From: Planctomycetota bacterium
Lineage (GTDB): Bacteria > Planctomycetota > UBA8108 > SXIK01
Direction of reading: 5' to 3'
Length of the DNA: 37,664 bases
Assembly (NCBI GenBank): GCA_016209535.1
Contig: JACQVW010000259.1
Location: 1-37,664 of the forward strand
The first letter of the stretch is position 1; every line of letters starts with the position of its first letter. The notes beneath the pieces are model-generated. The model was not told the origin of the DNA. It saw only the letters and a program-made list of their open reading frames with translations, and ran no database searches. The position numbers and the translations under genes were made by a program. Of the stretch, positions 9,658-35,901 are shown in pieces.

Positions 9658-9680
9658 GACCGCACTCTCCTCCATGCCAC

Positions 9681-9718
9681 CCGGCCCCGGCCGTGACGCG
9701 GGTCACGGGCGGGGCCGG
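9681..9718. promoter_or_regulatory. CRP/FNR-like palindrome, site B, inside a 17-bp hairpin
   Basis: The core CCGTGACGCGGGTCACGG (9691-9708) is an exact GTGA-N6-TCAC, 35 bp before the cytochrome start at 9657. It sits in a longer inverted repeat with 17-bp arms (9681-9697 and 9702-9718), one mismatch and a 4-base loop. The hairpin follows the DUF4058 stop, so part of its role could be transcription end or mRNA protection. There is no T tract. Confidence 0.55.
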
Positions 9719-10601: not shown

Positions 10602-11594
10602 CTACCCCCGCCCCTGCCCGCTCCGGTGGTGCAACTGCCGGCGGATCGCGGCGGCCCGGCCGGCGCCGGCGGAGCCGCCCGCCTCGAGGCTCAGGGAGGC
10701 GGTCAGGTGGCGCGCCAGGGAGCGGACGGTCGGGAAGCGGAAGATGTCGGTGACGGCGAGGTCGGCGTAGAGGCCCTCGCGGACCCGCGCGCAGACCCTG
10801 AGGGCCGCCAGCGAGTCGCCGCCGAGGTCGAAGAAGTTGACCTCGGCGCCGGCGTCCGCGACCCCGAGCGTCTCCTGCCAGATCCTCGAGACTTGGCGCT
10901 CGACCTCCGCGTCGACCGGGCCGCCGGCCCCGGGACCTTCCTCGCAGGCCGCCGCCGCGAGGACCTGGGCGGGGACGCCGAAGACCGTGGCGCCCTCGGG
11001 CACGTCCTGGACCACGACGGAGCCGGCGCCGACGGTCGCCCAGCTCCCGACCTTGATCTCGGGGAGGATCGTCGCGTTCGAGCCGACGTAGACGCCGTCC
11101 CCGAGCTCGACCCGGGCGTTGAGGACGGCCCCCGGCCCGATCACGCAGCCGCGCCCGACGCGGCTCCCGTGGCCCGCGATGGCCCGCATGAAGACCACGG
11201 TCGCGTCGCCGAGCGCGACGCCCGGGCACACCGTCGAGTCCTCGTACACCGTGAGCTCGGCCCCGAGCTCGGCCCCGGCAATGTCGACCCTCGGGTCGAC
11301 GAGGGAGGCGAAGGGGTGCCCGAAGCCCGCGATCCTCGAGCGGGCCGCGGCGCGCTTCCGGGTCGTCCTCGCGACCATGTTGACGGCCTCGGCGCCGCCT
11401 CGAGCCGCCCCTCGCAGCGCCTCGAAGGGCCCGGCGACCCTCACGCCGAGGACGGACCTCCCGTGCTTCGCGGGGTCATCGTCGAGCAGGACGAGCTCGT
11501 CCCAGCGGCCCTCCATGCGGTTGACCGCCAGCGCGAGCCGCACCCCCTCGGGGTTCCCGGCCCCGCAGAGGTAGAGCGTGCGGAGGCCCGTCAT
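10602..11594 (-). CDS. PglD-like sugar acyltransferase fused to an acyl/peptidyl carrier domain
   Basis: A 330-residue fusion. Residues 1 to about 75 form a Rossmann-like N-terminal domain (LYLCGAGNPEGVRLA) as in PglD/NeuD-type acetyltransferases. About 85-225 is a left-handed beta-helix of hexapeptide repeats (for example GVALGDATVVF, ARVELGDGVYVGSNATI), the acyl-CoA-binding trimer fold. From about 235 to 310 is a carrier protein domain whose NFFDLGGDSLAALRV carries the phosphopantetheine serine near residue 261. The carrier would present a thioester-bound group for transfer or modification. The ATG overlaps the stop of the radical SAM gene by four bases (ATGA), so the two form an operon. 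No adenylation or condensation enzyme is in the window, so a partner must act in trans. Confidence 0.88.
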   Translation of the reverse strand: MTGLRTLYLCGAGNPEGVRLALAVNRMEGRWDELVLLDDDPAKHGRSVLGVRVAGPFEALRGAARGGAEAVNMVARTTRKRAAARSRIAGFGHPFASLVDPRVDIAGAELGAELTVYEDSTVCPGVALGDATVVFMRAIAGHGSRVGRGCVIGPGAVLNARVELGDGVYVGSNATILPEIKVGSWATVGAGSVVVQDVPEGATVFGVPAQVLAAAACEEGPGAGGPVDAEVERQVSRIWQETLGVADAGAEVNFFDLGGDSLAALRVCARVREGLYADLAVTDIFRFPTVRSLARHLTASLSLEAGGSAGAGRAAAIRRQLHHRSGQGRG

Positions 11595-12514
11595 CCCGCG
11601 ACCTCGTGCGCCGGGCGGATCCTCGCCGCCGAGCCCACCATCCAGTCCTTGCAGCCCTGGCAGCGCTCGGGGAGGAGGTGGAAGCGGCGCGAGAGGTGGT
11701 GGTCGCGGTACTCGCCGAGGCGCGCCCAGAGGGCCGTGAGGGTCTCGTCCCAGGCGTTGCCGGCGCTCTCCTCGCCCTCGGTGTCGCCCGGGCAGCGGGG
11801 CACGCGCCCGTCCCAGAAGACGTGCATCATCGTCATGGCCCAGGGGCAGGGGATGCGGTCCTCGGGCGCGACGCACAGGAGCGTCTGGAACGTGCCACCC
11901 CAGCTCAGCTTGTTCCGCACCTTGACCGTGGCGCCCCGCTCGAGCCAGTAGGCCTTGAACTCCTCGAGCTCGTGGCAGTTCTCGTCCATCTCGATGAACT
12001 GGACCTGCACCTCGGGGCCCGCGCCGCGCGAGCGCCGCGCCTCGAGAAAGTCCTCGATGTTCCCGTAGAGCACGTCGCGGACGCCGTTGACGCGGATCTT
12101 CTCGTAGGTCTCGGCGGAGAAGCCATCGATGCCGAAGACGACGAGGTCCACTCCCGAGTCGAGGACTCGCTCGCCGAGCTCGGAGGTGAGGAGCATCCCG
12201 TTCGTGTTGATGTTGAGCGACCGGAGGCCGACGGACTTGCCGTAGGCGATTGCGCTCAAGAGCAGCTCGGGCTCGAGGAGCGGCTCGCCGCAGAAGGAGA
12301 ACCAGACCTCGGTGTCGGGCGAGACCGCGGCGACCTCGTCGGCGCAGCGCCGGAAGAGCTCGAAGGGCAGCCGGCCCTTGGGCCTGCGCATGAAGGGGTG
12401 GTGGCACATGGTGCAGGCGAGGTTGCAGGCCGCGCAGAGCTCGACGGCGAGCTTCCTCGGGAAGCTCGACGGCTCGAGGGTCCGGGCGATGCGGGCGAGG
12501 TCAGGGTGGGGCAA
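11591..12514 (-). CDS. Radical SAM / SPASM protein
   Basis: A 307-residue radical SAM enzyme. The cluster motif CNLACTMC (Cys30, Cys34, Cys37 from the chosen start) and the FSFCGEPLL glycine-rich segment are clear. C-terminal cysteines (CPWAMTMM, RCPGD and CQGCKDW) fit a SPASM or twitch auxiliary-cluster region. These enzymes use S-adenosylmethionine to modify peptides, nucleosides or sugars. I chose the TTG start at 12514 because GGAGG stands six bases before it; the frame also runs upstream to a GTG at 12661, but that stretch is Arg/Pro-rich and looks non-coding. The gene overlaps the acyltransferase-carrier gene downstream. A CRP-like site lies about 150 bp upstream. The substrate may be the group carried by its operon partner (inference). 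Confidence 0.87.
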   Translation of the reverse strand: MPHPDLARIARTLEPSSFPRKLAVELCAACNLACTMCHHPFMRRPKGRLPFELFRRCADEVAAVSPDTEVWFSFCGEPLLEPELLLSAIAYGKSVGLRSLNINTNGMLLTSELGERVLDSGVDLVVFGIDGFSAETYEKIRVNGVRDVLYGNIEDFLEARRSRGAGPEVQVQFIEMDENCHELEEFKAYWLERGATVKVRNKLSWGGTFQTLLCVAPEDRIPCPWAMTMMHVFWDGRVPRCPGDTEGEESAGNAWDETLTALWARLGEYRDHHLSRRFHLLPERCQGCKDWMVGSAARIRPAHEVAG

Positions 12515-12664: not shown

Positions 12665-12682
12665 CCGTGATCCAGGTCACGG
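12665..12682. promoter_or_regulatory. CRP/FNR-like palindrome, site C
   Basis: CCGTGATCCAGGTCACGG is an exact GTGA-N6-TCAC with matching outer CC/GG. It lies 152 bp upstream of the radical SAM start on the minus strand and just overlaps the end of a small sigma-like fragment. Confidence 0.55.
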
Positions 12683-14670: not shown

Positions 14671-15004
14671 ATGGAATCCTCGGCCCACCTGGTCACGCAA
14701 CTTCTTGAACGTGCGCGGGACGGGGACCTCGCCGCGCGCGACGAGCTCTTCCGGCTCACCTACGACGAGCTGCACCGGCTCGCCGAGGCCCGCCTGCGCG
14801 ACGAGCGGCCGGGCCGGGCGCCGGACGCCTCGAGCCTCGTCAACGAGGTGTCCCTGAGGCTGCTGGAGGGGGAGAGGCTGCCTGGTGAGAACCGCGCCCA
14901 GTTCCTCGCCTGCGTCTCCCGGGCCATGCGCAACATCCTCGTCGACCGGGACTGGGAGGTCGCGAGGATGTGGCTCCTCCGGGAAATGCGTAAGGGGGAA
15001 TCGC

Positions 15005-15015
<11 letters not shown>
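14671..15015 (+). CDS. ECF-type sigma factor with most of region 4 missing
   Basis: A 114-residue protein, much shorter than the usual 180-200 of planctomycete ECF factors. Residues 1-80 match region 2 of the family: HLVTQLLERARDGDLAARDE, LRDERPGRAPDASSLVNEV and AQFLACVSRAMRNILVDR. The sequence then passes at once to DWEVARMWLLREM, which in relatives is the last helix after the region 4 helix-turn-helix (usually preceded by V-x-R-DW). The linker and HTH, about 70 residues, are therefore absent, apparently by in-frame deletion across a repeated DR dipeptide. Such a protein should bind core polymerase but not the -35 element. It overlaps the kinase gene by 11 bases, the normal sigma-kinase operon order. 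A true short variant is possible. Confidence 0.75.
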
Positions 15016-17647
<2,632 letters not shown>

Positions 17648-18781: not shown

Positions 18782-21700
18782 TCACTGCTGCCCTCTCGAC
18801 AGCGCGCCCAGGTCGAGCCCACCCTCGCGACGGCAGGGCGCGGGCTCCGCCGTGCAGGGGAGGCCCTCGCCGAAGGTGGGATCGAGACCGCAGGCGGGGA
18901 AGGGCTGCGCCGGGGGACCGGCGCCCGTCGCGAGGAAGGCCGCGAGCTGGACGGCGTCCGCGGGGGTCACGGCGCCGCCGTCGTCGACGTCCGCCGCGTC
19001 CTCGCAGGGGAGCGGCCCGCCGGACTCGAGGCCCCGCGCCAGGACGAGGAGGTCGCCCCAGCCCACGGCCCCGTCCCCGTCGGCGTCGCCCCGCACGAAG
19101 CCCCGGAGCGGCTGCTCGTGGAAGAGCGCTCCGAGATCGGCCCTCGTGTCGTCGGCGTCCGCCGGGACCGCCGGGTCGCCCGCGTCGATGGCGGGCGAGC
19201 CCGGCAGGAGCGCGTAGTCCCCGCCGATCCAGCCCATGGGCCCGCGCCACCAGGGCGGCCAGAGCTCGGGCGGGAAGGGGCTCCGCACGCCGCCGCGGCC
19301 GCTCGACGGCTCGGGGTCCCAGAGACCCGTGGGGTCGACGAAGAGGGGGAAGGCGTCCCGGCACGTGGGGGAGCGGACCGCGCGCTCCTGGGCGAGGCAC
19401 CACTCGACTCGGGCTCCGGAGAGCTCGGGCTCGTTGGACCAGAGGATCGAGCCCTCGACGGACGCGCCGCCCCCCTCGGCGCAGAGCGCGCCGCCCGAGC
19501 GCCCGGCCCGGTTGTGGACCAGCGTGCCCCGGCGGACCTCGAGGCGCGCGCCCCCGGCCGCGAAGGCGCCGCCGCCGTCCTCGAGCGCGATGTTCCCGGC
19601 GAGGACGCACCGCTCGACGCGGAGGCCGAGGCCGCGATCGACGTGGAGGCCGCCGCCGAGCCGCGCGAGGCAGCCCTGCACGTCGTTCCCGGCGAGCGAC
19701 GGGACCGCGTCCCCCGCACCGAGGACCGCGATGCCGCCGCCGCGCTCGGCCCAGCACTCGCGGACCTCGTTCCCGGCGATGACCGGCGCCCCGTCCTCGC
19801 AGGCGATCCCCCCCCCCGCGCCGGCGGCCGCGCCGCAGCGCGCGATGCGGTTCCCGGTCACGGTCGGTCCGGACCCCAGGATCGCGATCCCGCCGCCGCG
19901 GCGCACGCCGTTCGCGACGGTCCCGCGGCCCCCCTCGAGGGTGAACCCCTCGAGCTCGGCCCCGCGCCCTTCGCCCCCGTGGAACACGACGACGCTCCCG
20001 CGCTCCTCGTCCGGGACGCGGTCCGCGTACCGGATGACCGTCCTCTGGGGTCCGCCGGCGCTCCGGACGCGCACGGACTTCCCGCGGAAGTCGATGGCCC
20101 GCTCGACCTCGTAGGTCCCGTGCGCCACGATCACGTCGTCGCCGTCCCGGAGAGCGTCGAGGGCCTCCTGGATCGACGCGAAGTCCCCGGGGACCCGGTA
20201 GCGCGTCGGGCGTGGCAGCTCCGCAACGACCGGCAGAGGCCCCGAGTCCTCCGCGGCCAGCTCCCAGACGGGAAGGCTCGCCGCGAGGTTCCCGAGGCCG
20301 AGCTTCCGGAGGTGGTGCGGCGCGAGGGAGCGGAAGAGGAGCCGCACGCGCGCATGTACCGTGCCGCCCTCGAGCTCCCGGGGCACGCGGAAGCGATAGA
20401 GCGCCCGGCGCTCCTCGAGGGGCGCGAGCGAGCGCTCCACGGTCCGCTCCGAGAGCCAGTACGGGACGGGCTTCCCCTCGGCGTCGACGAAGTAGTCCGA
20501 GAACTGGACGAGCCAGGGGTCCGCGGCCGGTTCGAGCTCGCTGCGTCCGTCCTTGAGGTCTCCGGCCGCGTCGAGCTGCCCCGAGAGGAGGAGCGGCTCC
20601 CCGTTGCCGCCGACGACGGTCACCTCGAGCCAGAGCTGGCGCAGGCTCGCGGCCGGGAAGTTGTGCCCGACGCCCGAGCTCTTCACGTAGGCCGCGAGGA
20701 CGGCCTCGGAGCCGGCCGCGAAGGCCTCGGGGAGCTCGACCGAGAGCCGCGCCGCCGTGCGGAGGAACCTTCGCTGCTCCTCCTCCTGGTACCCGCCGTT
20801 CGGGAAGGGCACGAGGGGCGTGAAGACGCCGGGGAAGTGGTGCCGCCGGAGGGTCTCCCGGAAGGGACCACCCACGGCTGCCTGCCCGCTGTAAACGGGC
20901 ATGTGGCAGTCCTGGCACTCGGATTCCCTCGCCGGGTAGGGCGAGGCCTCCCACTCGGCGAAGGTCTTCTCGATCCTGCGCCCGCGGTGGATCACGTCGT
21001 GGCAGCTCCCGCAGGCGTCGCTCGAGCCGATGAGCTCGCTGCGGGCCGACTCGTGGGCCTCCGTCGGCGCCGGCTCGTGCAGGCGCCCGAGGAAGACCGT
21101 GCCCTCGCTCAGCTCGAAGCTCGCGTTCGCCACGGGGACCACCTCCCGGGGCGGCTCCATGCGGTGGCAGGTCTCGCAGGAGACGCCGTCGCGCACGGCG
21201 GGCGAGAGGTCCTCGACCTGGAAGTCGCCGCGCAGCTCGCCGCTCCGCACGCCGACGGGGCTGTGGCACTCGAGGCAGGCGGTGCCGATCTCCCCGCAGG
21301 TGTCCTCGAGGGCCATGCGGTTCGAGGCCCGGAAGACCGGGTCCACCATGGCGTAGGCGTGCGCCGATCCGCGCCACTCGAGGTACTGGCGCGGATGGCA
21401 CTCCTGGCAGGCCGCGGATCCCGCGGATCCCGCGGAGCCGGCAGATCCCGCGGATCCTGTGGAGCTTGCGTGGTGGTGCTTCCGAGCTCCTGCGTCCTTC
21501 GCGGCGGTCGGGGCGGTCGACGCCTCCTCCCGTCCCGGGGAGACCACGGTGCGGAGCGTCGTGAACCCGTCCGCGAAGCTGTCACCGATGAGGAACTCGA
21601 AGAACCAGTTGTAGCGCAGCGCGATCGGCGTCGGGCGCTCGACCGTCGGCGCGAGGCTCCGGCGCATGGTGGGGAAGCCGCGGATGGAGTGGGCGCGTCC

Positions 21701-22813
21701 CCAGAAGGGGCCCTCGGGGTTCCTGAAGGGCGAGGCATCGAGCGAGGCGGGGAGCTGGTCCGGGTAGTAGTCGCGGTCGAACCAGTCGGCGGTCCACTCG
21801 GCGCAGGCGCTGACCGCATCGGCGATGCCGTGGGGGCTGTCGCCCCGGGGGCTGTAGGCCCCCACGGGCCGGAGCTCGTCCGTGAGGCTCAAGTGGTAGG
21901 AGCTCGGCATCTCCCAGCCCCAGGGGTAGCGGCGCCCGTCGGTGCCCCTCGCCGCCTTCTCCCACTGGGCATCGGTGGGGAGCGTCTTCCCGTGGAACCG
22001 CGCGTAGGCCTCGGCCCCGAACCACGAGACGTCGACCACGGGGAGGCGCTCGAACCCCGGCTTGACGCGGAAGCGCTGGCCGTCCCAGGCGATCGCGTGC
22101 AGGCTCCGCGGCTTGCGGCGGCTGCGCGTCTCGTAGTGCTCGCGGAGGAAGCGCGTGTAGTGCTGGAAGTAGTAGAAGGGGACCCAGGTCCCGTCGATCT
22201 CGCCCACCACGGCCAGCTCGCCTGGCCGCGCGATCCCCTGCTCGACAGCCTCCTGGAGGAAGGCCGCGTACTGCTCGTGCGTCACCTGGTGGCGGTCGAT
22301 CCAGTAGGCGTCGAGCCACGCTGCGTGGGACGGCTCGTCGTTCGAGTTCTGCGCCGTCTTCACCTCGAGCAGGTCCCTCGTCCCCTCGACGTCGCCTCGG
22401 AGGAATCGGCCCTCCGGGACGAGGACCATGCCCTCGAGCGAGGGCGCGCCCACCTCGACCGAGACCTCGGCACTGGACGTGCGGCCGCCGCAGGTGACCT
22501 CGACCGCGAGCGTGCACTCGCCGGTCCTCGCCGGCGCCCTCCAGGCGACCTCGCTCAGGTCGTCGAAGTGGAGGACGCCCGCGCTCGCGCTCCACCGGAC
22601 GTCGTGCTCCTCGCCGCAGGCCGGCTCGGGCTTCGCCCGGAGCAGGATGAGGCTCCCGCGGTGGACGCGGCGGGGCCGCATCTCGATCCGGACCCGGCGG
22701 GCTGCGGGGCCGTCCTCGCCCAGGGCGGGACCCGCCCCTGCGGCGGGCAGGCAGGCGGCGGCGGCAAGTGCGAGCGCCGTGAGGGAGCGCCCGCGTTGGG
22801 CTGGAGACCGCAT
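18782..22813 (-). CDS. FGE-like / pentaheme cytochrome / beta-helix / dockerin multidomain secreted protein
   Basis: A 1343-residue secreted protein with four modules. After a signal peptide (about 1-33) and an Ig-like segment comes an FGE/SUMF1-type domain at about 125-400 (GMVLVPEGRFLRGD, LPTDAQWEKAARGTDGR). Five c-type heme motifs follow: CQECH near 469, CLECH 513, CETCH 546, CGSCH 601 and CQDCH 633, in the spacing of multiheme c554/NrfA-like proteins; other His residues could be second ligands. At about 880-1180 is a right-handed beta-helix (FASIQEALDALRDGDDVIVA, GGGIA repeats). The end has two dockerin-like loops (DADGDGAVGWGDLLVL, DVDDGGAVTPADAVQL). A (Gly-Ser-Ala)n linker precedes the first heme. 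It is likely an extracellular electron-transfer or oxidising protein tethered to a partner. The start at 22813 gives the best signal peptide. It is divergent from the next gene, with a perfect palindrome between. Confidence 0.9.
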   Translation of the reverse strand: MRSPAQRGRSLTALALAAAACLPAAGAGPALGEDGPAARRVRIEMRPRRVHRGSLILLRAKPEPACGEEHDVRWSASAGVLHFDDLSEVAWRAPARTGECTLAVEVTCGGRTSSAEVSVEVGAPSLEGMVLVPEGRFLRGDVEGTRDLLEVKTAQNSNDEPSHAAWLDAYWIDRHQVTHEQYAAFLQEAVEQGIARPGELAVVGEIDGTWVPFYYFQHYTRFLREHYETRSRRKPRSLHAIAWDGQRFRVKPGFERLPVVDVSWFGAEAYARFHGKTLPTDAQWEKAARGTDGRRYPWGWEMPSSYHLSLTDELRPVGAYSPRGDSPHGIADAVSACAEWTADWFDRDYYPDQLPASLDASPFRNPEGPFWGRAHSIRGFPTMRRSLAPTVERPTPIALRYNWFFEFLIGDSFADGFTTLRTVVSPGREEASTAPTAAKDAGARKHHHASSTGSAGSAGSAGSAGSAACQECHPRQYLEWRGSAHAYAMVDPVFRASNRMALEDTCGEIGTACLECHSPVGVRSGELRGDFQVEDLSPAVRDGVSCETCHRMEPPREVVPVANASFELSEGTVFLGRLHEPAPTEAHESARSELIGSSDACGSCHDVIHRGRRIEKTFAEWEASPYPARESECQDCHMPVYSGQAAVGGPFRETLRRHHFPGVFTPLVPFPNGGYQEEEQRRFLRTAARLSVELPEAFAAGSEAVLAAYVKSSGVGHNFPAASLRQLWLEVTVVGGNGEPLLLSGQLDAAGDLKDGRSELEPAADPWLVQFSDYFVDAEGKPVPYWLSERTVERSLAPLEERRALYRFRVPRELEGGTVHARVRLLFRSLAPHHLRKLGLGNLAASLPVWELAAEDSGPLPVVAELPRPTRYRVPGDFASIQEALDALRDGDDVIVAHGTYEVERAIDFRGKSVRVRSAGGPQRTVIRYADRVPDEERGSVVVFHGGEGRGAELEGFTLEGGRGTVANGVRRGGGIAILGSGPTVTGNRIARCGAAAGAGGGIACEDGAPVIAGNEVRECWAERGGGIAVLGAGDAVPSLAGNDVQGCLARLGGGLHVDRGLGLRVERCVLAGNIALEDGGGAFAAGGARLEVRRGTLVHNRAGRSGGALCAEGGGASVEGSILWSNEPELSGARVEWCLAQERAVRSPTCRDAFPLFVDPTGLWDPEPSSGRGGVRSPFPPELWPPWWRGPMGWIGGDYALLPGSPAIDAGDPAVPADADDTRADLGALFHEQPLRGFVRGDADGDGAVGWGDLLVLARGLESGGPLPCEDAADVDDGGAVTPADAVQLAAFLATGAGPPAQPFPACGLDPTFGEGLPCTAEPAPCRREGGLDLGALSRGQQ
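21411..21465. repeat. 9-bp repeat coding a Gly-Ser-Ala linker
   Basis: About five copies of a 9-bp unit close to CGCGGATCC, coding repeated Gly-Ser-Ala just before the first heme motif of the pentaheme region. Likely a flexible hinge between the FGE-like and cytochrome modules. Confidence 0.8.
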
Positions 22814-22863
22814 GTTGGACCGACTTCCCGTTGGGCGAAGGTACACCCGCCCCCGGAGAGGTG

Positions 22864-22881
22864 AAGTGACCTAGGTCACAG
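22864..22881. promoter_or_regulatory. CRP/FNR-like palindrome, site D (perfect), shared by divergent giant cytochrome genes
   Basis: AAGTGACCTAGGTCACAG contains the perfect 14-bp palindrome GTGACCTAGGTCAC. It lies 35 bp before the ATG at 22915 and 52 bp before the start at 22813, so one site could control both genes. Confidence 0.65.
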
Positions 22882-22914
22882 ACGCGGCGCCAGGGGGCGA
22901 GCGACACCGTTACC

Positions 22915-25900
22915 ATGACGACCAAGCTCGCTGGGATCTTGCTCGGCTTCCTCCTGGTCTCGGGCCCGGCCGCGGCCCCGGCCCAGGCGACTGCGGCCGC
23001 GGGCTTCCTCCTTCCCGCTCCCGGAGCCGCCGGCCCCGAGGCCCTCGCGGCGCGGGCCCTCGCGGCGAGGCTCGCCGGGGGGGCGAGGACGCTCGCCCCG
23101 CTCGAGGGCGGCGGCTTCGCCGAGGAGACGGGCGAGCGCGCCGACCTCGACGGCCTCCGCGTCCTCTGGCTGCACCAGGGGGACTCGGCCGAGGATCTCG
23201 GGCCCGCGCAAGAGCCGTGCAATCTTGAGTCTCTGCGCGCCTTCGTCCGCGCCGGCGGCGGCCTCTTCCTCTCGGGCGCCGCCCTCGCGCTCGTGGAGCC
23301 CCTCGGCGTCGAGCCGGTGCGGCCGCGCCGCGGCGGCCCCGGCGCCGACCGCGGCCAGGCGGCGCTCGTCCCCGTCGTGGCGGACCACCCGGCCTTCGAG
23401 GGGCTCTCGCGGGAGGGCCGCCTCGTCCCCGTGAGCGACGCGGGCTACCCCGCCTTCGCCGACTTCCACGGGACCGGAGGGCCGGCCGGGGGCATGCTCC
23501 TCGCCCGCGCGCCGGGCGGCTCCGAGAGCCCGCTCGTCGAGTACTCGCTCGGGGAGGGCCGCATCGTCGCAATGGGCTGGAGGCTGCCGCACTACGCGCA
23601 CGCGGCGAACGCCCACCGCGCGAACCTCGAGCGCCTCACGGCCAACGTCCTCGGCTACCTCGCGGACCGGCGCTCCTGGCGCGAGGTCAAGGTCCCGCCG
23701 GCTCCGGTCCTCGCGGCGAGCGGAGCGCCGGCGCCGGTGGGCCCCGAGGAGTGGCGGTCGCTCGAGCTCGCCGTGCGGGACCTCCTCGAGACCTCCGGCG
23801 AGCGGTACCCCGGAGGCGCCGCGTACCTCGAGCGCCTCGGCGCCTTGAGATCGGCCCACGACGCCGTCCTCTCCGGCGAGAGGACCGCCGGCGGGCCGAC
23901 CCTCGCGCGGCTGCGGGACGACTTCGAGGCGCTCCGCCGCGAGGCCCTCCTCGCGAACCCCCTCCTCGACTTCGAGGAGCTCCTCGTGGTGCGGCGCGGC
24001 GCGGGGAACCTGGGCCTCCCCATGAACTGGGAGGGGAACTCGAGCCTGCCCAGGACGGGCTTCGAGAACGAGATCGCCGTCGTGTCGCCGAGGCGACCGG
24101 AGGCGGCTCCGAGGACGGTCTTCCGGCCCGGGGGCGGGAGGTTCGTGGGGGACCTGGACCTCCACTTCGACGGCGACCGCATGCTCTTCAGCATGCCCGG
24201 CCCGAGCGGCCGCTGGGGCGTCTTCGAGGTCCGCGCCGATGGCTCGGGCCTGCGCGAGCTCGAGCTCGTCCGGGAGCCCGACGTCGACAACTACGACGCT
24301 TGCTACCTGCCCGACGGGGCGGTGATCTTCTGCTCCACGGCCACCTTCACCGGCGTCCCTTGCGTGCGCGGCTCCTCGCACGTCGCGAACCTCTACCGCC
24401 TCGAGCCCTCGGGCGCGATCCGCCGCCTCACGGTGGAGCAAGACCACGACTGGTGCCCGGCGGTGCTCCCGGACGGGCGCGTCCTCTACCTCCGCTGGGA
24501 GTACACGGACATCCCGCACGCCTTCAGCCGCATCCTGTTCTCGATGAACCCCGACGGCACGGGCCAGGGGGAGCACTACGGGAGCAACTCCTACTGGCCG
24601 AACTCGCTCTTCTACGCGCGGCCAGTGCCGGGGCACCCATCGAAGCTCGTCGCGGTCGTCGGCGGCCACCACGACAACCCGCGCATGGGAGAGCTCGTGG
24701 TCCTCGACCCGGCGCTGGGGCGCCGCGAGGCCAGCGGTGCCGTGCAGCGGGTCCCCGGGCGCGGGAGGCGGGTGGAGCCCGTGCTCCTCGACGGCCTCAC
24801 GGCCGAGAGCTGGCCCAAGTTCCTCCATCCCTGGCCCCTCTCCGAGAAGCACTTCCTCGTGGCGGCGAAGCCGGACCCGCAGGCGCTCTGGGGGATCTAC
24901 CTCGCCGACGTCTTCGACAACCTGGTGCTCCTCCGCGAGGAGCGGGGCCAGGCGCTCCTCGAGCCGGTGCCCCTGCGCCCCCTGCCGCGGCCGCCCGTGA
25001 TCCCGCCGAGGGTGGACCTCGCGCGGTCCGACGCCACGGTGTACCTCGCCGACGTCTACGCCGGCGAGGCGATGCGGGGCGTGCCGCGCGGGACCGTGAA
25101 GGCCTTGCGCCTCGTGAGCTACGCCTTCGCGTACCACGGCATGGGCGGCCAGTACGACCGCGTGGGCCTCGACGGTCCCTGGGACGTCCGGAGGATCCTC
25201 GGCACCGTGCCGGTCCGCGACGACGGCTCGGCGAAGTTCCTCGTCCCGGCCCTGACGCCCATCGCGGTCCAGCCCCTCGACGCCTCGGGGGGGGCCGTGC
25301 AGCTCATGCGGAGCTGGTTCACCGCCATGCCGGGTGAGGTCCTCTCGTGCTCCGGCTGCCACGAGCGGAGGAACGACGCGCCGGCCCCGGAGGCCACCTT
25401 GGCCTCCCGGGAGCCGCCGAGCGCGATCGCGCCCTGGCGCGGGCCGCCGCGGGGCTTCAGCTTCGAGCGCGAGGTGCAGCCGGTCCTCGATCGCCTCTGC
25501 GCCGGCTGCCACGACGCCGGCGCGCCGCCGGAGCGCAGGGCGGCTCCGGACCTCACGCGGCGCGAGCCCGTGCACCTCCGGGCCGCGAGCCCCGACTACA
25601 ACGCCGGCTCGCGGTTCCCGCCGGCCTACACCGAGCTCCGGAAGCACGTGCGCGGGCACACGATCGAGAGCGACATCCGCGGCCTCCCGCCCTGGGAGTT
25701 CCACGCCGAGACGACGCGGCTCGTCCAGATGCTCGGGAAGGGCCACGCCGGCGTGCGGCTCGACGCGGAGGCCCTGGACCGCATCGTCACGTGGATCGAC
25801 CTCAACACGCCGGCCCACGGGACGTGGACGGAGGTCTGCGGCGGCGCACGCGTGCGGCGCCTCGCGGAGCGCCGGCGGGAGATGCGCCGGCGCTACGACG

Positions 25901-26997
25901 GGGTCGACGAGGACCTCGAGGCCGCCCCCTCGGCGGAGGCGCCGCCGGCGAGCGGGCCCGCGGCGCAGGCAGCCCTCGCGGCGGCCCCCGCCCCCGCCGC
26001 CACCCCCCCCGGGGCGCCGGGGCCAGCGGAGGAGCCTCCCGGCGCCCAAGGCTGGCCCTTCGGCGCCGAGGAGGCACGCCGCAGGCAGGAGTCCTCCGGA
26101 GAGGGGCCGAGCTCCGTCTCGATCGAGCTCGGCGAGGGCGTCTCCCTGGAGCTCGTGCGGATCCCCGCCGGCGAGTCGGTCGTGGGCGACCCGGCGGGCG
26201 AGCCCGACGAGCGGCCCGCGGCGCGCGTCCGGATCGAGCGGCCCTTCTGGATGGGCCGCTTCGAGGTGACGAACGAGCAGTACGCGCTCTTCGACCCGTC
26301 GCACTCGAGCGGCATCGAGCACGGGGACTTCCTGCAGTTCGACGAGCGCGAGCGCGGGTACCGCCTCGACGGCCCGAGGCAGCCCGTCGTGCGCGTCTCG
26401 TGGCTCGACGCCATGGCCTTCTGCGAGCACCTCTCGGCGCGGACCGGGCTCAAGGTCACGCTGCCCACCGAGGCCCAGTGGGAGCACGCTTGCCGCGCCG
26501 GGACGCCGACGCCTTTCTGGTACGGCGGCCTCGACGACGACTTCTCGAGCTTCGCCAACGTCTCCGACGCCACGCACCATTCGGTGGACACCTTCGGGTG
26601 GGGGCTCCCGTCGGGCGCGATCCCGCCCTGGCGGCCGGCGGACGCGCGGTTCGACGACCGCTCGAGGGTCTCGGCGCCCGTCGGGAGCTACAAGCCGAAC
26701 GCCTGGGGCCTCCACGACATGCACGGCAACGTCGCCGAGTGGACGCGGACGGCCTACGAGCCCTACCCCTACGACGGCGCCGGCGGCCGCGACGCCGCGC
26801 ATCCCGGAGCGCCCGGGAGATCCGGTTCGCCCGATCTGCCGGGGTTGCGGGTCGCCCGCGGCGGCTCGTGGTACGACGTGCCCTGGCGGTGCCGCTCGGC
26901 CTTCCGCCAGGTCTACCCGGCCTACCGGCCGGTGTACGATGTGGGCTTCCGCGTGGTCTGCGAGGGCGACCTCGGCGCGCGGACCCCCGCCCGCTGA
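22915..26997 (+). CDS. ThuA-like / HzsA-like diheme / FGE-like multidomain secreted protein
   Basis: A 1360-residue protein. It starts with a signal peptide (LLGFLLVSGPAAAPAQA), then a ThuA/glutamine-amidotransferase-like region to about 250 (LRAFVRAGGGLFLSGAALAL, GEGRIVAMGWRLPHYAH). A large HzsA-like propeller follows at about 340-830 (NYDACYLPDGAVIFCS, DHDWCPAVLPDGRVLYLRW, HPWPLSEKHFLVA), with heme motif CSGCH near 812 and a second, CAGCH, near 862 in a PSD1/DUF1588-like C-terminal cytochrome part. A Pro/Ala linker leads to an FGE/SUMF1 domain at about 1065-1350 (IPAGESVVGD, TLPTEAQWEHACRAGTP, NAWGLHDMHGNVAEW, RGGSWYD). The first active-site Cys of true FGE is absent in RGGSWYDVPWRC, so formylglycine formation is unlikely. 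The gene has the same FGE-plus-heme logic as its divergent neighbour. Confidence 0.9.
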   Translation: MTTKLAGILLGFLLVSGPAAAPAQATAAAGFLLPAPGAAGPEALAARALAARLAGGARTLAPLEGGGFAEETGERADLDGLRVLWLHQGDSAEDLGPAQEPCNLESLRAFVRAGGGLFLSGAALALVEPLGVEPVRPRRGGPGADRGQAALVPVVADHPAFEGLSREGRLVPVSDAGYPAFADFHGTGGPAGGMLLARAPGGSESPLVEYSLGEGRIVAMGWRLPHYAHAANAHRANLERLTANVLGYLADRRSWREVKVPPAPVLAASGAPAPVGPEEWRSLELAVRDLLETSGERYPGGAAYLERLGALRSAHDAVLSGERTAGGPTLARLRDDFEALRREALLANPLLDFEELLVVRRGAGNLGLPMNWEGNSSLPRTGFENEIAVVSPRRPEAAPRTVFRPGGGRFVGDLDLHFDGDRMLFSMPGPSGRWGVFEVRADGSGLRELELVREPDVDNYDACYLPDGAVIFCSTATFTGVPCVRGSSHVANLYRLEPSGAIRRLTVEQDHDWCPAVLPDGRVLYLRWEYTDIPHAFSRILFSMNPDGTGQGEHYGSNSYWPNSLFYARPVPGHPSKLVAVVGGHHDNPRMGELVVLDPALGRREASGAVQRVPGRGRRVEPVLLDGLTAESWPKFLHPWPLSEKHFLVAAKPDPQALWGIYLADVFDNLVLLREERGQALLEPVPLRPLPRPPVIPPRVDLARSDATVYLADVYAGEAMRGVPRGTVKALRLVSYAFAYHGMGGQYDRVGLDGPWDVRRILGTVPVRDDGSAKFLVPALTPIAVQPLDASGGAVQLMRSWFTAMPGEVLSCSGCHERRNDAPAPEATLASREPPSAIAPWRGPPRGFSFEREVQPVLDRLCAGCHDAGAPPERRAAPDLTRREPVHLRAASPDYNAGSRFPPAYTELRKHVRGHTIESDIRGLPPWEFHAETTRLVQMLGKGHAGVRLDAEALDRIVTWIDLNTPAHGTWTEVCGGARVRRLAERRREMRRRYDGVDEDLEAAPSAEAPPASGPAAQAALAAAPAPAATPPGAPGPAEEPPGAQGWPFGAEEARRRQESSGEGPSSVSIELGEGVSLELVRIPAGESVVGDPAGEPDERPAARVRIERPFWMGRFEVTNEQYALFDPSHSSGIEHGDFLQFDERERGYRLDGPRQPVVRVSWLDAMAFCEHLSARTGLKVTLPTEAQWEHACRAGTPTPFWYGGLDDDFSSFANVSDATHHSVDTFGWGLPSGAIPPWRPADARFDDRSRVSAPVGSYKPNAWGLHDMHGNVAEWTRTAYEPYPYDGAGGRDAAHPGAPGRSGSPDLPGLRVARGGSWYDVPWRCRSAFRQVYPAYRPVYDVGFRVVCEGDLGARTPAR

Positions 26998-27054: not shown

Positions 27055-28228
27055 ATGAGCTCCGCGCCATCCCTGTCCGTCCTCGCCGTCGCCCTCGCCA
27101 CGAGCGCCCTCTCCGCCGCCCCCTTCCGCCCGCCGGCCGTGCCCCTCGTGACCCACGACCCATACTTCAGCGTCTGGTCCCCGGCGACCGCCTCACCGAC
27201 GCCCCGACGGTCCACTGGACGGGGAGGCGGCACCCTCTCGCGAGCCTCGTACGGATCGACGGCGCAGCGCACGGCCTCATGCTGTACGCGGCAGCGCCGG
27301 CCGCCCCGGGCACGAGCGCCGCGGTCGCGCCCGGTCCCGCGGCCCGCGAGGCCTTCGCGTCGGGCCGCGCCCCGGCCAGCGACCCCGCCGCCTCGGGGCC
27401 TCGCGCCGCCGGCGACGGCCCGCCGGTCCTCGCCCTCGCCTTCGACCTCGGCGCCGTGGGCGCCGAGCCCGCCTCACGCTGGGCGATGCTCGCCTACGAC
27501 GACCTCGGATCGATCGACTACATGGGCCGCCGCCTCCGGCCCTACTGGCGCAGGCGGGGCGCCGGACCGGAGGACCTCCTGAGGGCGGCGTACTTGAAGG
27601 AGAAGGGCCGGGACCCCGAGAACCAGCTCTGCACCGACGACTTCGCCGGCCACCTCGCCCACAACGTGAACCTCTCGGCGAAGGCCACGCTGGCCCTTGG
27701 AGTCCACGCCATGCTCTGCCGCATGCTCGGGAAGGCGGCCGAGGCCGCGGCGTACCGCCGCACGGCCGAGGAGCTCGCGGCGGCGTGGGTCCGTGAGGCC
27801 CGCGACGGCGACGGCGACGGCGACGGAGATCACTACCGCCTCGCCTTCGACAGGCCCGGCACCTGGAGCCAGAAGTACAACCTCCTCTGGGACCGCGTCC
27901 TCGGCCTGGGCCTCTTCCCGCCCGAGGTCGCGCGGGACGAGATGGCGCACTACAAGAAGGTCCAGAACCGCTACGGCCTGCCCCTCGACGGCCGCAAGGA
28001 CCACACGAAGCTCGACTGGGTTCTGTGGACCGCGTGCCTCACGGGCTCGCGCGAGGACTTCGACGCGCTCGTGGAGCCCGTGCACGCGTTCCTCCAGGAC
28101 TCGCCCGACCGCGTGCCCATGTCGGACTGGTACGGGACGCGCGACGCGCGGGTCGTCGGCTTTCGGGCGAGGCCCGTCGTGGGCGGGGTCTTCGCGAGGC
28201 TCCTCTGCGACCCGAAGGCCTGTGCCGC
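27055..28228 (+). pseudogene. Glutaminase A family (GutA/DUF4965) gene, frameshifted and internally deleted
   Basis: The ATG at 27055 begins a signal peptide and the family's opening (FRPPAVPLVTHDPYFSVWSP). Near 27182 the frame is lost: restoring one G gives GDRLTDAPTVHWTGRRHPLA in the next frame. The rest shows family blocks in that frame: AFDLGAVGAEPASRWAMLAY, RRLRPYW, DPENQLCTDDFAGHLAHNVN, GTWSQKYNLLWDR, TKLDWVLWTA and VVGGVFARLLCDP. Two large pieces usual for the family are absent: most of the N-terminal DUF5127 region after LMLYAAAP, and the DUF4965 core between LLRAA and YLKEKG. At 28225-28230 the frame runs off into an unrelated sequence. No full-length product can be made. The family is annotated as secreted glutaminases, but activities in Planctomycetota are mostly untested. 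Confidence 0.75.
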
Positions 28229-30103
28229 CAGACGGGCGGCGGGCAGTACATCGACCTGGGCATCGCGGCGATCGAGCGCGAGCGCTGGAGCGCCGAGCGG
28301 GCCTGGGAGTGGCACCGCTCGAGGCTCTGGCTTTGCAGCGTGAACTTCGTCCCCAGCACGGCCGCGAACACGACCGAACTCTGGCAGGCGGAGACCTTCG
28401 ACGAGGCGGCGATCGAGCGGGAGCTCGGCTGGGCCAGCGACCTCGGCTTCAACGCCTGCCGCGTCTTCGTCCAGCACCTCGTCTGGAGGCACGACCCCGG
28501 CGGGCTCCGGCGGCGCGTCGAGCGGTTCCTCGCGATCGCCTCGGGCCAGGGTCTCTCGACGGTCCTCGTCCTCTTCGACGATTGCAGCTTCGGGGATCCC
28601 CCCGTCACCGAGCCTTACCTCGGGAGGCAGCGGAACCCCATCCCCGGCATGATCTGCCCGAGCTGGACGCCGAGCCCGGGCCTCAAGGCGGTGACGGACC
28701 GCGCCGCGTGGCCGGACCTCGAGCGGTACGTGTTGGACATGGTGAGCGCCTTCGGCGGCGACGAGCGCGTGGTCCTCTGGGACCTCTACAACGAGCCCGG
28801 CAACTCGGGCATGGGTTCGAAGAGCCTGCCCCTGGTCGAGGCGGCCTTCGCGTGGGCCCGCGAGGCCGACCCCGTGCAGCCCTTGACCGTCGGCGTCTGG
28901 ACCGGCGCGCTGGAGGAGCTCAACCGGCGCCAGCTCGAGCTCTCGGACATCGTGAGCTTCCACGCCTACACGGACCACGACGGGATGCGGAAGGCCATCG
29001 CGGCCCACGGGGCCCACGGCCGGCCCGTGGTCTGCACGGAGTGGATGGCGCGGCACCTCGGGAGCCGCTTCGGCGCCGAGCTGCCGCTCTTCCGGGCCGA
29101 GGGCGTGGGGTGCTTGAGCTGGGGCCTCGTCAACGGCCGGACCCAGTGCCAGTTCTCCTGGGGGTCGAAGCGCGGGGCGCCGGAGCCCGAGGTGTGGTTC
29201 CACGACATCCTGCGGCGCGACGGGACCCCCTTCGACCCGGGCGAGGTCGCGGCGATCCGGCGCTGGACCGGGGCCTCGCCGCGCGTCGCGGCGCAGCTCT
29301 ACGTCTGGACGCAGCACTTCGGCGCGAAGGGCCAGAGGCTCGAGGACCGCCTCGACGAGGCCCTCGCGGCCACGCGCCGTGCGGGCTACGGCGCCGTGCA
29401 GGGCTGGCTCGACGCCTGCGCGACCCCGGAGAAGGCGCGGGCTACCCTGGAGGCCCTGCGGAAGAACGGCCTCGTCATGCGCGCCGCCTACACGGACGGC
29501 CGGCTGCACGAGGAGGACGCCGCGGCGAAGGCGTCCGAGGAGATCCTGCGCAAGGCCCGGATCGCCCGCGACCACGGGCTCGAGCTCGTCGTCATGAACC
29601 CGGACCCCATCGGCCGCGAGAAGACGGACCAGGAGCTCGCGGTGCAGGCCCGGAGCCTCGAGGCCCTGGGCTCGAGGCTCCGCGATCTGGGCCTGCGCCT
29701 CGCGGTCCACTCGCACGACCCCGAGATGCGCTCGGGGGCGCGGGAGTGGCGGCACGTGTTGCGCAGCACCACCGCGAGGAACGTCTCCTTCTGCCTCGAC
29801 CTCCACTGGGTCCTCCGGGGCGGCCAGGACCCGATCGCGCTCCTCGAGGAGGCGGGCCCGCGCGTCGCGGACCTGCACTTGAGGAACTCGCGGGACGGGG
29901 TCTGGCTCGAGGACCTCGGGCCGGGCGACATCGACCACGGAAGGGTCGCCGATGCGCTCCGCAAGATCGGCTACGGGGGCACCTACACGGTGGAGCTCGC
30001 CCATGAGCCGAGGACGGAGCTCACCCGCCCGCTCGAGGAGAGCTTGCGGAGGAGCCTCGCCTTCGTGCGCGAGACGCTTCTCCCCCGTGACCTGGGTCAT
30101 TGA
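28229..30103 (+). CDS. GH5-like glycoside hydrolase fused to a sugar-isomerase-like TIM barrel, 5' end lost
   Basis: About 624 codons with no start of their own; the sequence joins the glutaminase remnant in a different frame at 28229. Codons 1 to about 350 resemble cellulase/GH5-type barrels of Planctomycetota: NFVPSTAANTTELWQAETFD, ELGWASDLGFNACRVF, acid/base Glu in LYNEPGN (28793-28795), and nucleophile Glu in CTEWMARH (29039-29041). From about 350 to the end is an epimerase-like barrel (VWTQHFGAKG, LAVHSHDPEM, FCLDLHW, DLHLRNSRDG, TVELAHEP). A hydrolase and an epimerase in one chain suggests release and conversion of one sugar. Both catalytic Glu survive, so the coding part looks recently active. 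The stop at 30101 follows CRP-like site E. Expression would require an in-frame start that I cannot find. Confidence 0.75.
   Translation, partial: QTGGGQYIDLGIAAIERERWSAERAWEWHRSRLWLCSVNFVPSTAANTTELWQAETFDEAAIERELGWASDLGFNACRVFVQHLVWRHDPGGLRRRVERFLAIASGQGLSTVLVLFDDCSFGDPPVTEPYLGRQRNPIPGMICPSWTPSPGLKAVTDRAAWPDLERYVLDMVSAFGGDERVVLWDLYNEPGNSGMGSKSLPLVEAAFAWAREADPVQPLTVGVWTGALEELNRRQLELSDIVSFHAYTDHDGMRKAIAAHGAHGRPVVCTEWMARHLGSRFGAELPLFRAEGVGCLSWGLVNGRTQCQFSWGSKRGAPEPEVWFHDILRRDGTPFDPGEVAAIRRWTGASPRVAAQLYVWTQHFGAKGQRLEDRLDEALAATRRAGYGAVQGWLDACATPEKARATLEALRKNGLVMRAAYTDGRLHEEDAAAKASEEILRKARIARDHGLELVVMNPDPIGREKTDQELAVQARSLEALGSRLRDLGLRLAVHSHDPEMRSGAREWRHVLRSTTARNVSFCLDLHWVLRGGQDPIALLEEAGPRVADLHLRNSRDGVWLEDLGPGDIDHGRVADALRKIGYGGTYTVELAHEPRTELTRPLEESLRRSLAFVRETLLPRDLGH
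30085..30102. promoter_or_regulatory. CRP/FNR-like palindrome, site E (one mismatch)
   Basis: CCGTGACCTGGGTCATTG has one mismatch at the right end. It overlaps the last codons of the GH/epimerase gene and lies 118 bp before the ATG at 30219. Confidence 0.5.
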
Positions 30104-31705: not shown

Positions 31706-32146
31706 TTACTTCGAGCGGTGCGCCTTGTGGCAGCTCGCGCAGGCCCCGGTGACGGTCTTGAAGGCCGTGTTGGCCGCGGTGAGGTCCTTCTTCTCGACGG
31801 CCGCGAGCACGGCGGCGCTGCCTTCCCGGAGGCTCTTCGCCGCTCCGGCCCAATCGCCGTCGGGGCAGCGGCCGTCGTCCATGAGCAGGTGGCCCATCTC
31901 GTTGAGGACCGACGCGTGGCAGGCGGCCGTGTCCCAGGCCTTGTCGTCGGCGGGACCCGAGTCCTTGAGGAGGTCGCCGAGCCCCTTGCAGTTGGGCTGG
32001 TTGATCCCCCGCATGAGGTACTTCGTGGCCGCCGCCCGGGTCTTCCCCTTGGCCTTCTGGGCGAGGAGGCTCCCGCCGGCAAACACGAAGCCGATCCCGA
32101 CCGCCGCCAACAAAGCCACCGTCACCGCGCAGCGTCTCCCGTACAT
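31706..32146 (-). CDS. Cytochrome c'-like secreted monoheme cytochrome
   Basis: A 146-residue protein with a signal peptide (about 1-29, VALLAAVGIGFVFAGG) and a C-terminal heme motif CASCH at 136-140, eleven residues from the end. The rest is helical, with AACHASVLNEMGHLL and AAVEKKDLTAANTAFKTVTG, in keeping with the four-helix cytochrome c'/c-556 fold, where heme attaches near the C-terminus. Roles in the family include small-molecule (NO) binding and electron transfer. The ATG at 32146 has GAGGTG about six bases upstream. CRP-like site F lies 118 bp before the start, the same distance as site E from its gene. It is convergent with the Met/His-rich gene. Confidence 0.85.
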   Translation of the reverse strand: MYGRRCAVTVALLAAVGIGFVFAGGSLLAQKAKGKTRAAATKYLMRGINQPNCKGLGDLLKDSGPADDKAWDTAACHASVLNEMGHLLMDDGRCPDGDWAGAAKSLREGSAAVLAAVEKKDLTAANTAFKTVTGACASCHKAHRSK

Positions 32147-32262: not shown

Positions 32263-32280
32263 CTGTGACTCAGGTCACGG
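32263..32280. promoter_or_regulatory. CRP/FNR-like palindrome, site F
   Basis: TCTGTGACTCAGGTCACG is within the site; GTGA at 32265-32268 and TCAC at 32275-32278 are exact, and the right flank is GG. It lies 118 bp before the cytochrome c' start on the minus strand. Confidence 0.55.
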
Positions 32281-33330: not shown

Positions 33331-35901
33331 ATGGCGAGCGAACGACGAAGCTGGACGTGGTGGAACAGGGCTGCGGCCCGGTGGGTTGTGTTGGGGGTTC
33401 TGCTTGCGATAAGTACGGGCGCCTTCGGGCAGGCCGACTTCCGCCGCGCCGACTCTAACGCCGACGGCGCTGTGGATATCTCCGACGCCATCAACACGCT
33501 CGCGTACCTTTTCACGGGCGGTGGGCAGGTCGAGTGCTTGGATGCCGTCGACGCCAACGACGACGGCGACGTTGACGTTTCCGATCCCATTTACACTCTC
33601 TTATTTCTCTTCGCGGATGGCCTTGCCCCGCCAGAACCTTTCACTGCGTGCGGCCTCGATTCGTCGCCAGATGGGTTTGGTTGTGAAAGTTTCACTCTCT
33701 GTGCTGTCGAGGTGACCGTCCGTTCGGACAAGCCATGGTACCTGGCCAATGAGACCGCGCTCATTTCCGTGGAGGTGTTGCCACTCGTGCCCAGTGCGCG
33801 GCACGTGCACTTCTCCGTGTTCGAAGTGACGGCCGAGAATGTGTGGACGCTACTCGTGGAGGAAAACCGACCCCTTGGCCAACTGGGAAAGCATGAGTTT
33901 CCTGTCGTTTTGCCTCGGGAGGGCCTCTATGTCGTGGCGGTTCGTCTGATCGGCAACCAGAACGTCGAGCTGGACAGGCAAGACCTCACCGTGGGGGTGA
34001 GACCGGATCTCCCAGAGGCACCGCCCGAGATCCTGACGTTTGAGGTGGCCGCAATCGACGTGCCGGTTGTGCATGATACTGTCCAGACTGCCGCAGCGTC
34101 TCAGGACGCAACCATGCTGCAGCTTGGAAACCAGACCTTGACCGTTATCCTCGAGGATCACACAGATGATCTCCTGAGTCCTGAGGTGCGAGCGCAAGAC
34201 CCGTCGGTGAAACTCTTTCGGGGAGAGCTCGAGGGGAGACCTGGGTCCGAGGTCCGGTTGTCGTTCACCGGCGACTCATTGTCTGACGTGCTTCGGGCCG
34301 CCGTGGATCCCGGTGGAGACGAAGCCAGTATCTACCTCGAGCCAGTTAGCGGAGAGACATCACCAGGGCCGTACATTTGCTATTCTGCGGACGCGGTGGT
34401 GTTTCAGGATGTGCACCCGGGCGGGGAAGGACAGCAGGCTGCCGGGGCTGGCGAGGCGGCAGCGGCGGGAGCAGGCGCGGGTAATCAAATGTCCTGTAGG
34501 GAAATGAGGCTCAATGTCTATTACGACAATGATCCGAAGAAGACTCGGTTTGGCCATATCAACAGGATGGATGCGGTTTTCTCCTCGGAGTTGAATATCA
34601 AGCTCAAGGTAGTGGGCGACCGGCAAATCAACACCGATTGCTATGGTGGTGCGATCTTGGATAGGTTCGCGGCCGATGTGAGCACTAGCTGCGCGGACAT
34701 CGCCCTGCTTTTTACGAACAATACGCGGATTGACTACGGCGGCTTCTTAGGACAAGGCTATTGGGCACGGGGACGATATGCGCAGCCGCCTGTCTGCTGG
34801 GTGCGGGTTCGCGGGTCGGATCATCAAATAGCCGTTACTGCTTGCCAGGAGATCTCCCACGTGCTTGGGGCGAGCGACATGGGGTGCAACACACCAGTGG
34901 GCGCGTGCTCGCATCGCGGGAGGGCGGTTCACGAGCATTGTCTTGGCTTCCTTTGCTGGAATCACTACTCAATCATGTACTCTGAGGCTGGGTTTGGAGT
35001 GACTGTCCACCTTAACTGGCTCGAGGAAGACCGGACTACTATTCGAGCCACGGTCAACTCTGCGGACAACTCCGCTACTGGCCACTTTCCCGTGTGCGGG
35101 AGTGGCCCATCACCGGACGAACCATCCACAATAACTAACTCCATTGGCATGCGGTTCGTCAGGATCGCGCCGGGCAGCTTCCTCATGGGCTCACCGGAGA
35201 GCGAGCGCGGAAGAGTTTGCTGCCCGGCGGAGACATCCCACAGAGTGCGCATCAGTCGCAGTTTTTACATTGGAGTCACGGAAGTTACTCAAGGACAGTA
35301 TCAGACCATCATGGGTACCAATCCGAGCTTTTTCTTTGGTGTTCGAGATGGAGTTGATTACGGCACGAATCCGAACCGACCCGTCGACAGCGTCCGGTGG
35401 AATGACGCCGTGGAGTTTTGTCGTCGCCTCTCGGTGCGCTCCGAGGAGCTCGCCGCTATCCGCTCCTACCGCTTGCCAACTGAGGCGGAATGGGAGTACT
35501 GCTGCCGAGCGGGCACTACGACGCGGTTTTCATTCGGCGATGTTTTCGAATGCAACGACTTCCAGGACCCTTGCGCTTCAGCCAATGAGCACCTGTGGTG
35601 GGTTGGAAACAATGCCCAATTCCCCGACCCACGGTGGGGGACGAAGCCGGTCGGACAGAAAACCCCAAACGCTTGGGGCCTCTATGATATGCATGGAAAC
35701 GTTTACGAATGGTGCCAAGACCGGCTTGTCACCTATCCGGAAGGAGAGGTATCAGATCCGCAAGGTACTTGTGGGAGTGATCGGGTGTGGCGCAGCGGTA
35801 GTTGGAGGGAATACCTAAGGAACTGTCGAGCGGCCTCAAGAACAGGGAGCGCCCAAGGTAGCAACGAAACAGGGTTCAGGGTTGTGCTTTGTGTACAATA
35901 G
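33331..35901 (+). CDS. Secreted dockerin / degenerate zincin / FGE-like protein
   Basis: An 856-residue protein with a signal peptide (about 1-34, VVLGVLLAISTGAFGQ). Two dockerin-like loops come first: DSNADGAVDISDAINTLAYL and DANDDGDVDVSDPIYTLLFL. The middle (about 130-590) looks like a secreted metzincin: the region TACQEISHVLGASDMGC fits HExxHxxGxxD, but the first His is Gln506, so zinc binding and peptidase action are doubtful. The end (about 605-850) is an FGE/SUMF1-type domain: FVRIAPGSFLMGSPESE, YRLPTEAEWEYCCRAGTTTR and NAWGLYDMHGNVYEWCQDR. GGGAGGAG six bases before the ATG supports the start. GC is much lower (near 55 percent) than in the neighbours and codon use is mixed, so this gene was probably acquired from another genome. 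It lies between the broken integrase and a full recombinase. Confidence 0.88.
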   Translation: MASERRSWTWWNRAAARWVVLGVLLAISTGAFGQADFRRADSNADGAVDISDAINTLAYLFTGGGQVECLDAVDANDDGDVDVSDPIYTLLFLFADGLAPPEPFTACGLDSSPDGFGCESFTLCAVEVTVRSDKPWYLANETALISVEVLPLVPSARHVHFSVFEVTAENVWTLLVEENRPLGQLGKHEFPVVLPREGLYVVAVRLIGNQNVELDRQDLTVGVRPDLPEAPPEILTFEVAAIDVPVVHDTVQTAAASQDATMLQLGNQTLTVILEDHTDDLLSPEVRAQDPSVKLFRGELEGRPGSEVRLSFTGDSLSDVLRAAVDPGGDEASIYLEPVSGETSPGPYICYSADAVVFQDVHPGGEGQQAAGAGEAAAAGAGAGNQMSCREMRLNVYYDNDPKKTRFGHINRMDAVFSSELNIKLKVVGDRQINTDCYGGAILDRFAADVSTSCADIALLFTNNTRIDYGGFLGQGYWARGRYAQPPVCWVRVRGSDHQIAVTACQEISHVLGASDMGCNTPVGACSHRGRAVHEHCLGFLCWNHYSIMYSEAGFGVTVHLNWLEEDRTTIRATVNSADNSATGHFPVCGSGPSPDEPSTITNSIGMRFVRIAPGSFLMGSPESERGRVCCPAETSHRVRISRSFYIGVTEVTQGQYQTIMGTNPSFFFGVRDGVDYGTNPNRPVDSVRWNDAVEFCRRLSVRSEELAAIRSYRLPTEAEWEYCCRAGTTTRFSFGDVFECNDFQDPCASANEHLWWVGNNAQFPDPRWGTKPVGQKTPNAWGLYDMHGNVYEWCQDRLVTYPEGEVSDPQGTCGSDRVWRSGSWREYLRNCRAASRTGSAQGSNETGFRVVLCVQ

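Follow-up and report, generated by a model that had tools for sequence, protein, structure and literature searches.

Two large secreted heme proteins encoded back to back around a probable CRP/FNR-type site in a planctomycete

Two genes of more than 1300 codons each, both encoding secreted heme proteins, stand back to back in a planctomycete genome, and their arrangement raises the question of whether their products work together. The window analyzed here is the whole stretch of 37,664 nucleotides from a Planctomycetota bacterium (GenBank assembly GCA_016209535.1, contig JACQVW010000259.1). Gene A (18782-22813, minus strand, 1343 amino acids) and gene B (22915-26997, plus strand, 1360 amino acids) diverge from a gap of 101 bp, counted from ATG to ATG, with a perfect 14-bp palindrome, GTGACCTAGGTCAC, at 22866-22879, just as an earlier, sequence-only reading of this DNA had described. 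Our best explanation, to which we give a probability of about 0.5, is that A and B belong to one CRP/FNR-type regulon and that B, a relative of the alpha subunit of hydrazine synthase (HZS), is a redox protein with A, a pentaheme cytochrome joined to a domain of the formylglycine-generating enzyme (FGE) family, as its electron partner.

The palindrome consists of two 7-bp halves without a spacer, resembles a CRP/FNR-type operator, and is centred 59.5 bp and 42.5 bp from the ATG codons of A and B, respectively. The exact 14-mer occurs once in the window, where allowing up to three mismatches gives 8 matches against 1.0 expected. Its core pattern, GTGAC-N4-GTCAC, has 45 sites in the 9.1-Mb genome (exact sites only, all of them retrieved), against about 8 expected from base composition and 0 for the reversed pattern. 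Since this reversed control is unmatched for codon content and varies widely in other genomes (e.g., 21 against 3 in G035), we place the weight on where the sites lie: 2 of the 45 fall in coding sequence, compared to 64.5% of random positions from two contigs of the same genome (P ~2e-17), a site being called coding when a stop-free, codon-biased frame runs through it. The sites lie roughly 20-300 bp upstream of gene starts. We regard GTGAC-N4-GTCAC as a predicted genome-wide operator of CRP/FNR form, and because their starts stand back to back around such a site, A and B are probably co-regulated. The shared control proposed by the sequence-only reading is thus supported by the operator-like site, but the site is not private to the pair; a dedicated A/B switch is rejected, since the 45 sites are spread over the genome and nearly all intergenic.

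HZS-alpha-like genes are enriched behind these sites. Exact copies lie upstream of 5 of the ~20 HZS-alpha-like loci in the genome, namely, B itself (C102) and the genes at C318, C574, C768, and C837 (P below about 5e-6 by simple counting, assuming 5,000-8,000 genes), and near-sites precede two more (C100 and C42). Four of the five loci with exact copies have the HZS-alpha-like gene and a partner gene facing away from each other on either side of the site. The partner is A in the present case, at C837 a beta-gamma homologue that matches both the beta (3e-26) and gamma (5e-26) chains of 5c2v, at C768 an FG-GAP protein, and at C318 a GH5-like protein. FG-GAP and beta-gamma neighbours have been reported for HZS-alpha homologues outside anammox bacteria (PMC12758564), and the same neighbour types stand at C768 and C837. 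Signal peptides (31 of 53 in the regulon versus 32 of 87 in the background) and hemes (12 of 53 versus 14 of 87) show modest enrichment against a biased background, so only the HZS-alpha enrichment is claimed for the regulon. At C837 (L126, 457-4549), the palindrome occurs in two exact copies, spaced 18 bp apart, between the HZS-alpha-like gene and the homologue, which corresponds to a beta-gamma fusion. Another HZS-alpha-like gene (PF18582, 4.5e-20) is found at 1-1047 of the window, cut by the window end.

A serious alternative, which we consider quite possible but short of probable, is that A and B are secreted neighbours that a global CRP/FNR-type regulator controls together, that no direct link in function exists between them, and that their adjacency is local to this lineage. 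Several observations favor it and weigh against a partnership. Orthologues of A and B are side by side in no other searched genome, the search for relatives of B having covered 28 genomes. In full-length relatives of the same order, the counterpart of gene A is two adjacent genes, an FGE-like gene followed by a pentaheme/beta-helix/dockerin gene (the A pair). Orthologues of A are found in G001-G009 without an orthologue of B, except for possible edge-of-contig fragments in G007, while the B orthologues of G010 and G012 are found without A. In G001, the one genome from the same family, the A pair is present and HZS_alpha genes are absent altogether, which argues that A can work without B. The palindrome was not found around the A pair in relatives, and the AlphaFold model of residues 1-880 of A (mean predicted local distance difference test score [pLDDT] of 55), too poor for a fold search, cannot support an A/B complex. 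Moreover, the putative regulon is broad and takes in unrelated genes (ECF-like sigma factors, DUF1501/DUF1800, and glycosidase-like genes), so that membership implies no partnership.

The window alone illustrates this breadth: three exact sites and two with one mismatch lie upstream of genes in it, and most of these genes have no relation to A or B. Besides the copy between A and B, exact sites lie at 9693-9706, ~18 bp upstream of a DUF7133/cytochrome c gene (6859-9675, minus strand), and at 32265-32278, 119 bp upstream of a cytochrome c'-like gene (31706-32146, minus strand). The one-mismatch copies are GTGATCCAGGTCAC at 12667-12680, ~150 bp upstream of a radical SAM gene (11591-12514, minus strand), and GTGACCTGGGTCAT at 30087-30100, upstream of a dockerin-like gene on the plus strand ending at 30974. 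At 14671-17647, an ECF-like sigma gene adjoins a gene for a protein kinase with WD40 repeats; elsewhere, the sites at L056, L062, L063, and L068 also precede ECF-like genes.

Two findings speak against the absence of any link. In G003 and G005, the A pair is directly preceded, on the same strand, by an HZS-alpha-like gene from a different subfamily; with only two HZS_alpha genes in G003 and eleven in G005, such adjacency is unlikely to arise by chance (below ~0.5% in each), with the limit that both genomes are of one family. The second is the divergence from a partner around the same site at the four loci described above. Co-occurrence of A and B homologues, the check proposed by the sequence-only reading, largely fails for the two orthologues, which adjoin each other only here. 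It survives in a weaker form, with an HZS-alpha-like gene of another subfamily next to the A pair in these two genomes. Less remains of its argument that both proteins combine FGE and heme modules in the same unusual way. The domains are present, but the genome holds 46 FGE-like domains, the parts of A are separate genes elsewhere, and B shares only ~25% identity in its FGE domain with the FGE domains of A relatives. A joint function of A and B is suggested and plausible, at roughly even odds.

As in known CRP/FNR regulons, the operator has the form GTGA-N6-TCAC, is palindromic and intergenic, and is accompanied in this genome by a candidate regulator with PAS, cNMP, and HTH_Crp domains. Two HTH_Crp_2 matches exceed the cut-off, in paralogues of this architecture at C173 and C116. 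The C173 gene follows NuoE/F-like and Fe-S redox genes and has a one-mismatch site, GTGACCTTTTTCAC, 25 bp upstream of its ATG. We infer that a CRP/FNR-family protein is the candidate regulator. Compared to CRP/FNR regulons described elsewhere, many predicted targets of this putative regulon are secreted planctomycete proteins. The C116 paralogue (L134, 2261-3523) is apparently split in two reading frames and lies beside a hemN-like gene. That another factor, such as the redox repressor Rex, binds the palindrome is unlikely. Rex sites have the same core, GTGA-N6-TCAC, and the genome has one gene with a Rex-type N-terminal domain. However, in the 164 kb checked, all six sites of this form whose fifth bases are complementary have C/G there, the flanks are CC/GG and not the Rex-type TTGTGAA, so that the known Rex site departs from the present consensus, and the Rex gene has no site nearby, whereas the CRP/FNR-type gene has a near-site upstream.

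The open reading frame of gene A spans 18782-22846, with the ATG at 22813, ahead of a signal peptide, as the likely start. The protein then comprises an immunoglobulin (Ig)-like domain, an FGE-like domain (residues 126-353; Pfam FGE-sulfatase, E 2e-31), a GSA-repeat linker, a pentaheme cytochrome part (residues 468-640; Cytochrome_C554, E 4e-10) with five CXXCH motifs at 469, 513, 546, 601, and 633, a second Ig-like domain, a beta-helix (3e-5, slightly below the Pfam cut-off), and a dockerin. The dockerin match alone is weak (PF00404, 0.002), with dockerin type I repeats counted as present, and a profile from nine relatives matches solved dockerins, such as 2y3n at 6e-7. Pfam, motif counts, and profile searches thus agree with the composition given by the sequence-only reading, an FGE-like domain, five hemes, a beta-helix, and a dockerin. 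The heme region matches both the cytochrome c554 family and the multiheme selenoprotein MccSep (PF13435; 1bvb, 9wt8), but the match spans only ~180 residues, and gene A differs from them in its five hemes, FGE-like N terminus, beta-helix, and dockerin. FGE/SUMF1 superfamily domains (PF03781; CalU17, PvdO, PorK) are found in both A and B, the closest solved relatives being CalU17 for A and PvdO/PorK for B. The catalytic cysteine pair of FGE (Cys336/Cys341 of SUMF1) was not found in either: the FGE region of A has a single cysteine (337), and of the cysteines of B at 1170, 1193, 1326, and 1349, no two close to the C-terminal GGSW motif stand five residues apart. Since these required residues are missing, formylglycine generation by A or B is rejected. 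A third FGE-like domain of the window lies at 33331-35901, in a protein with a dockerin-like N-terminal stretch and a metalloprotease-like middle.

By comparison with its relatives, gene A is a fusion of two normally separate genes. The linker (21421-21546, minus strand; about residues 423-464) contains tandem GSA repeats; at the same place, the relatives carry a stop codon, another start, and a further signal peptide. All five heme motifs line up across the aligned relatives, except for undetermined bases in one, and extra histidines are invariant. A same-genome paralogue at C514 (L075, 5677-9661) is also unfused and without the palindrome. A scan of public genomes finds the full architecture confined to Planctomycetota and the heme-plus-Ig part widespread. 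Outside this phylum, four genomes have an FGE-like gene immediately before a pentaheme cytochrome gene (HR21 and metagenome-assembled genomes from Bacteroidetes, Kapabacteria, and an unplaced lineage), and the genes overlap by a few bases in the two checked. In the non-planctomycete loci L153, L155, L158, and L163, the FGE-like gene directly before the cytochrome gene encodes a secreted protein. Gene A fuses what is tandem elsewhere, which supports a joint function of its two halves. The tandem may represent a conserved two-gene electron-transfer unit across phyla; we found no named system for it and, in the literature, no paper on an operon of FGE-sulfatase and c-type cytochrome genes. An artefact of sequencing or assembly that joined two genes is improbable, though the separate genes of full-length relatives would fit it, as would the short tandem repeat of the linker, error-prone and with disturbed codon-position GC, and another apparent frame break in the window at 27055-28343. 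Against it, the frame is open through 1343 codons, the second signal peptide leaves no remnant, and a GSA linker is plausible.

Gene B encodes a signal peptide, a Rossmann-like N-terminal domain, an HZS-alpha-like propeller, an HZS_alpha middle domain (PF18582, E 9e-29) with two c-type hemes (CXXCH at 812 and 862), and a C-terminal FGE-like domain (FGE-sulfatase, E 4e-46). The CSGCH at 812 is the heme alpha-I motif of the middle domain. The sequence-only reading had the propeller, the two hemes, and the FGE-like domain right, but its ThuA-like domain is not confirmed: the N-terminal 280 amino acids show no ThuA match, and their sole match, in B and four relatives, is DUF4960, below the cut-off. 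Orthologues proper, 56-61% identical, are found at C100 and C569 of the same genome and in G010 and G012. With a profile built from 14 HZS-alpha-like cores, 5c2v_A is matched at 3e-40. Among PDB structures, an AlphaFold model of residues 1-1050 of B (mean pLDDT 75) likewise matches hydrazine synthase alpha (5c2v) best (E 6e-26, TM score 0.56-0.57 by target).

With HzsA (PDB 5c2v/5c2w; PF18582), gene B shares the propeller, the middle domain, the C-terminal heme domain, and two c-type heme motifs. It differs in its extra N-terminal domain, its FGE-like tail, and two key residues. At heme alpha-I, B reads CSGCHERRN versus CSGCHYGSY in 5c2v_A, with Asn in place of the ligand Tyr591; at the zinc-ligand position Cys303, the profile alignment places the Asn of GSNSY opposite the Cys of GNCDG. 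Because both residues are missing, hydrazine synthase identity is rejected, and by its predicted protein B is HZS-alpha-like but not a hydrazine synthase alpha subunit. Cys303 is also missing in some anammox bacteria (PMC12758564), and non-anammox homologues in Planctomycetota are without Tyr591/Ser590 and Cys303 and often near beta-gamma or FG-GAP genes (PMC12758564, PMC10732223). In contrast to the present locus, PMC12758564 mentions no FGE-like domain, no regulation, and no FGE/pentaheme partner. B has A, and no beta-gamma gene, next to it; the beta-gamma homologue that comes closest is the one at C837, where it adjoins a different HZS-alpha-like gene. That the pair makes hydrazine, with B as alpha and A replacing beta-gamma, is very improbable: B resembles HZS alpha in sequence and fold, and the beta-gamma homologues published for clade I have, like A, cytochrome c554 domains (PMC12758564), but B has Asn at both positions, and A shows neither a propeller nor any match to the beta and gamma chains.

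Returning to a regulon with B as redox protein and A as electron partner, we propose that a CRP/FNR-family regulator would bind GTGAC-N4-GTCAC, the one site between A and B serving both promoters. A would be a secreted electron-transfer protein, held outside the cytoplasm by its beta-helix and dockerin, and its FGE-fold domain, which is no FGE enzyme, would more likely serve to bind a partner or to position it. B, likewise secreted, would be a redox protein with two hemes from the broader HZS-alpha-like family, one that lacks the zinc/tyrosine active site of hydrazine synthase. It may act on a small substrate at the heme alpha-I site and exchange electrons with A, presumably in physical contact, the flow of electrons, its direction, and the substrate all being conjectural. 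A would occupy the place of the beta-gamma-like or other partner of the other HZS-alpha-like genes in this genome. More tentatively, and rather doubtfully, HZS-alpha-like proteins outside anammox bacteria may generally form modular redox systems outside the cytoplasm in which one partner can take the place of another (beta-gamma-like, FG-GAP, FGE-like/pentaheme), each pair diverging from one CRP/FNR-type operator, with A/B as one such system that would combine a conserved FGE-like/pentaheme electron module with a small-molecule substrate. These proteins have no known function; regulon membership with a recurrent partner opposite offers a testable route to their partners and inducing signal.

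Downstream of B, a glycoside-related open reading frame at 27055-30103 appears to be interrupted, its parts lying in two or three frames, and it continues into a GH5/xylose-isomerase-like frame, which may reflect an assembly-error frameshift or decay.

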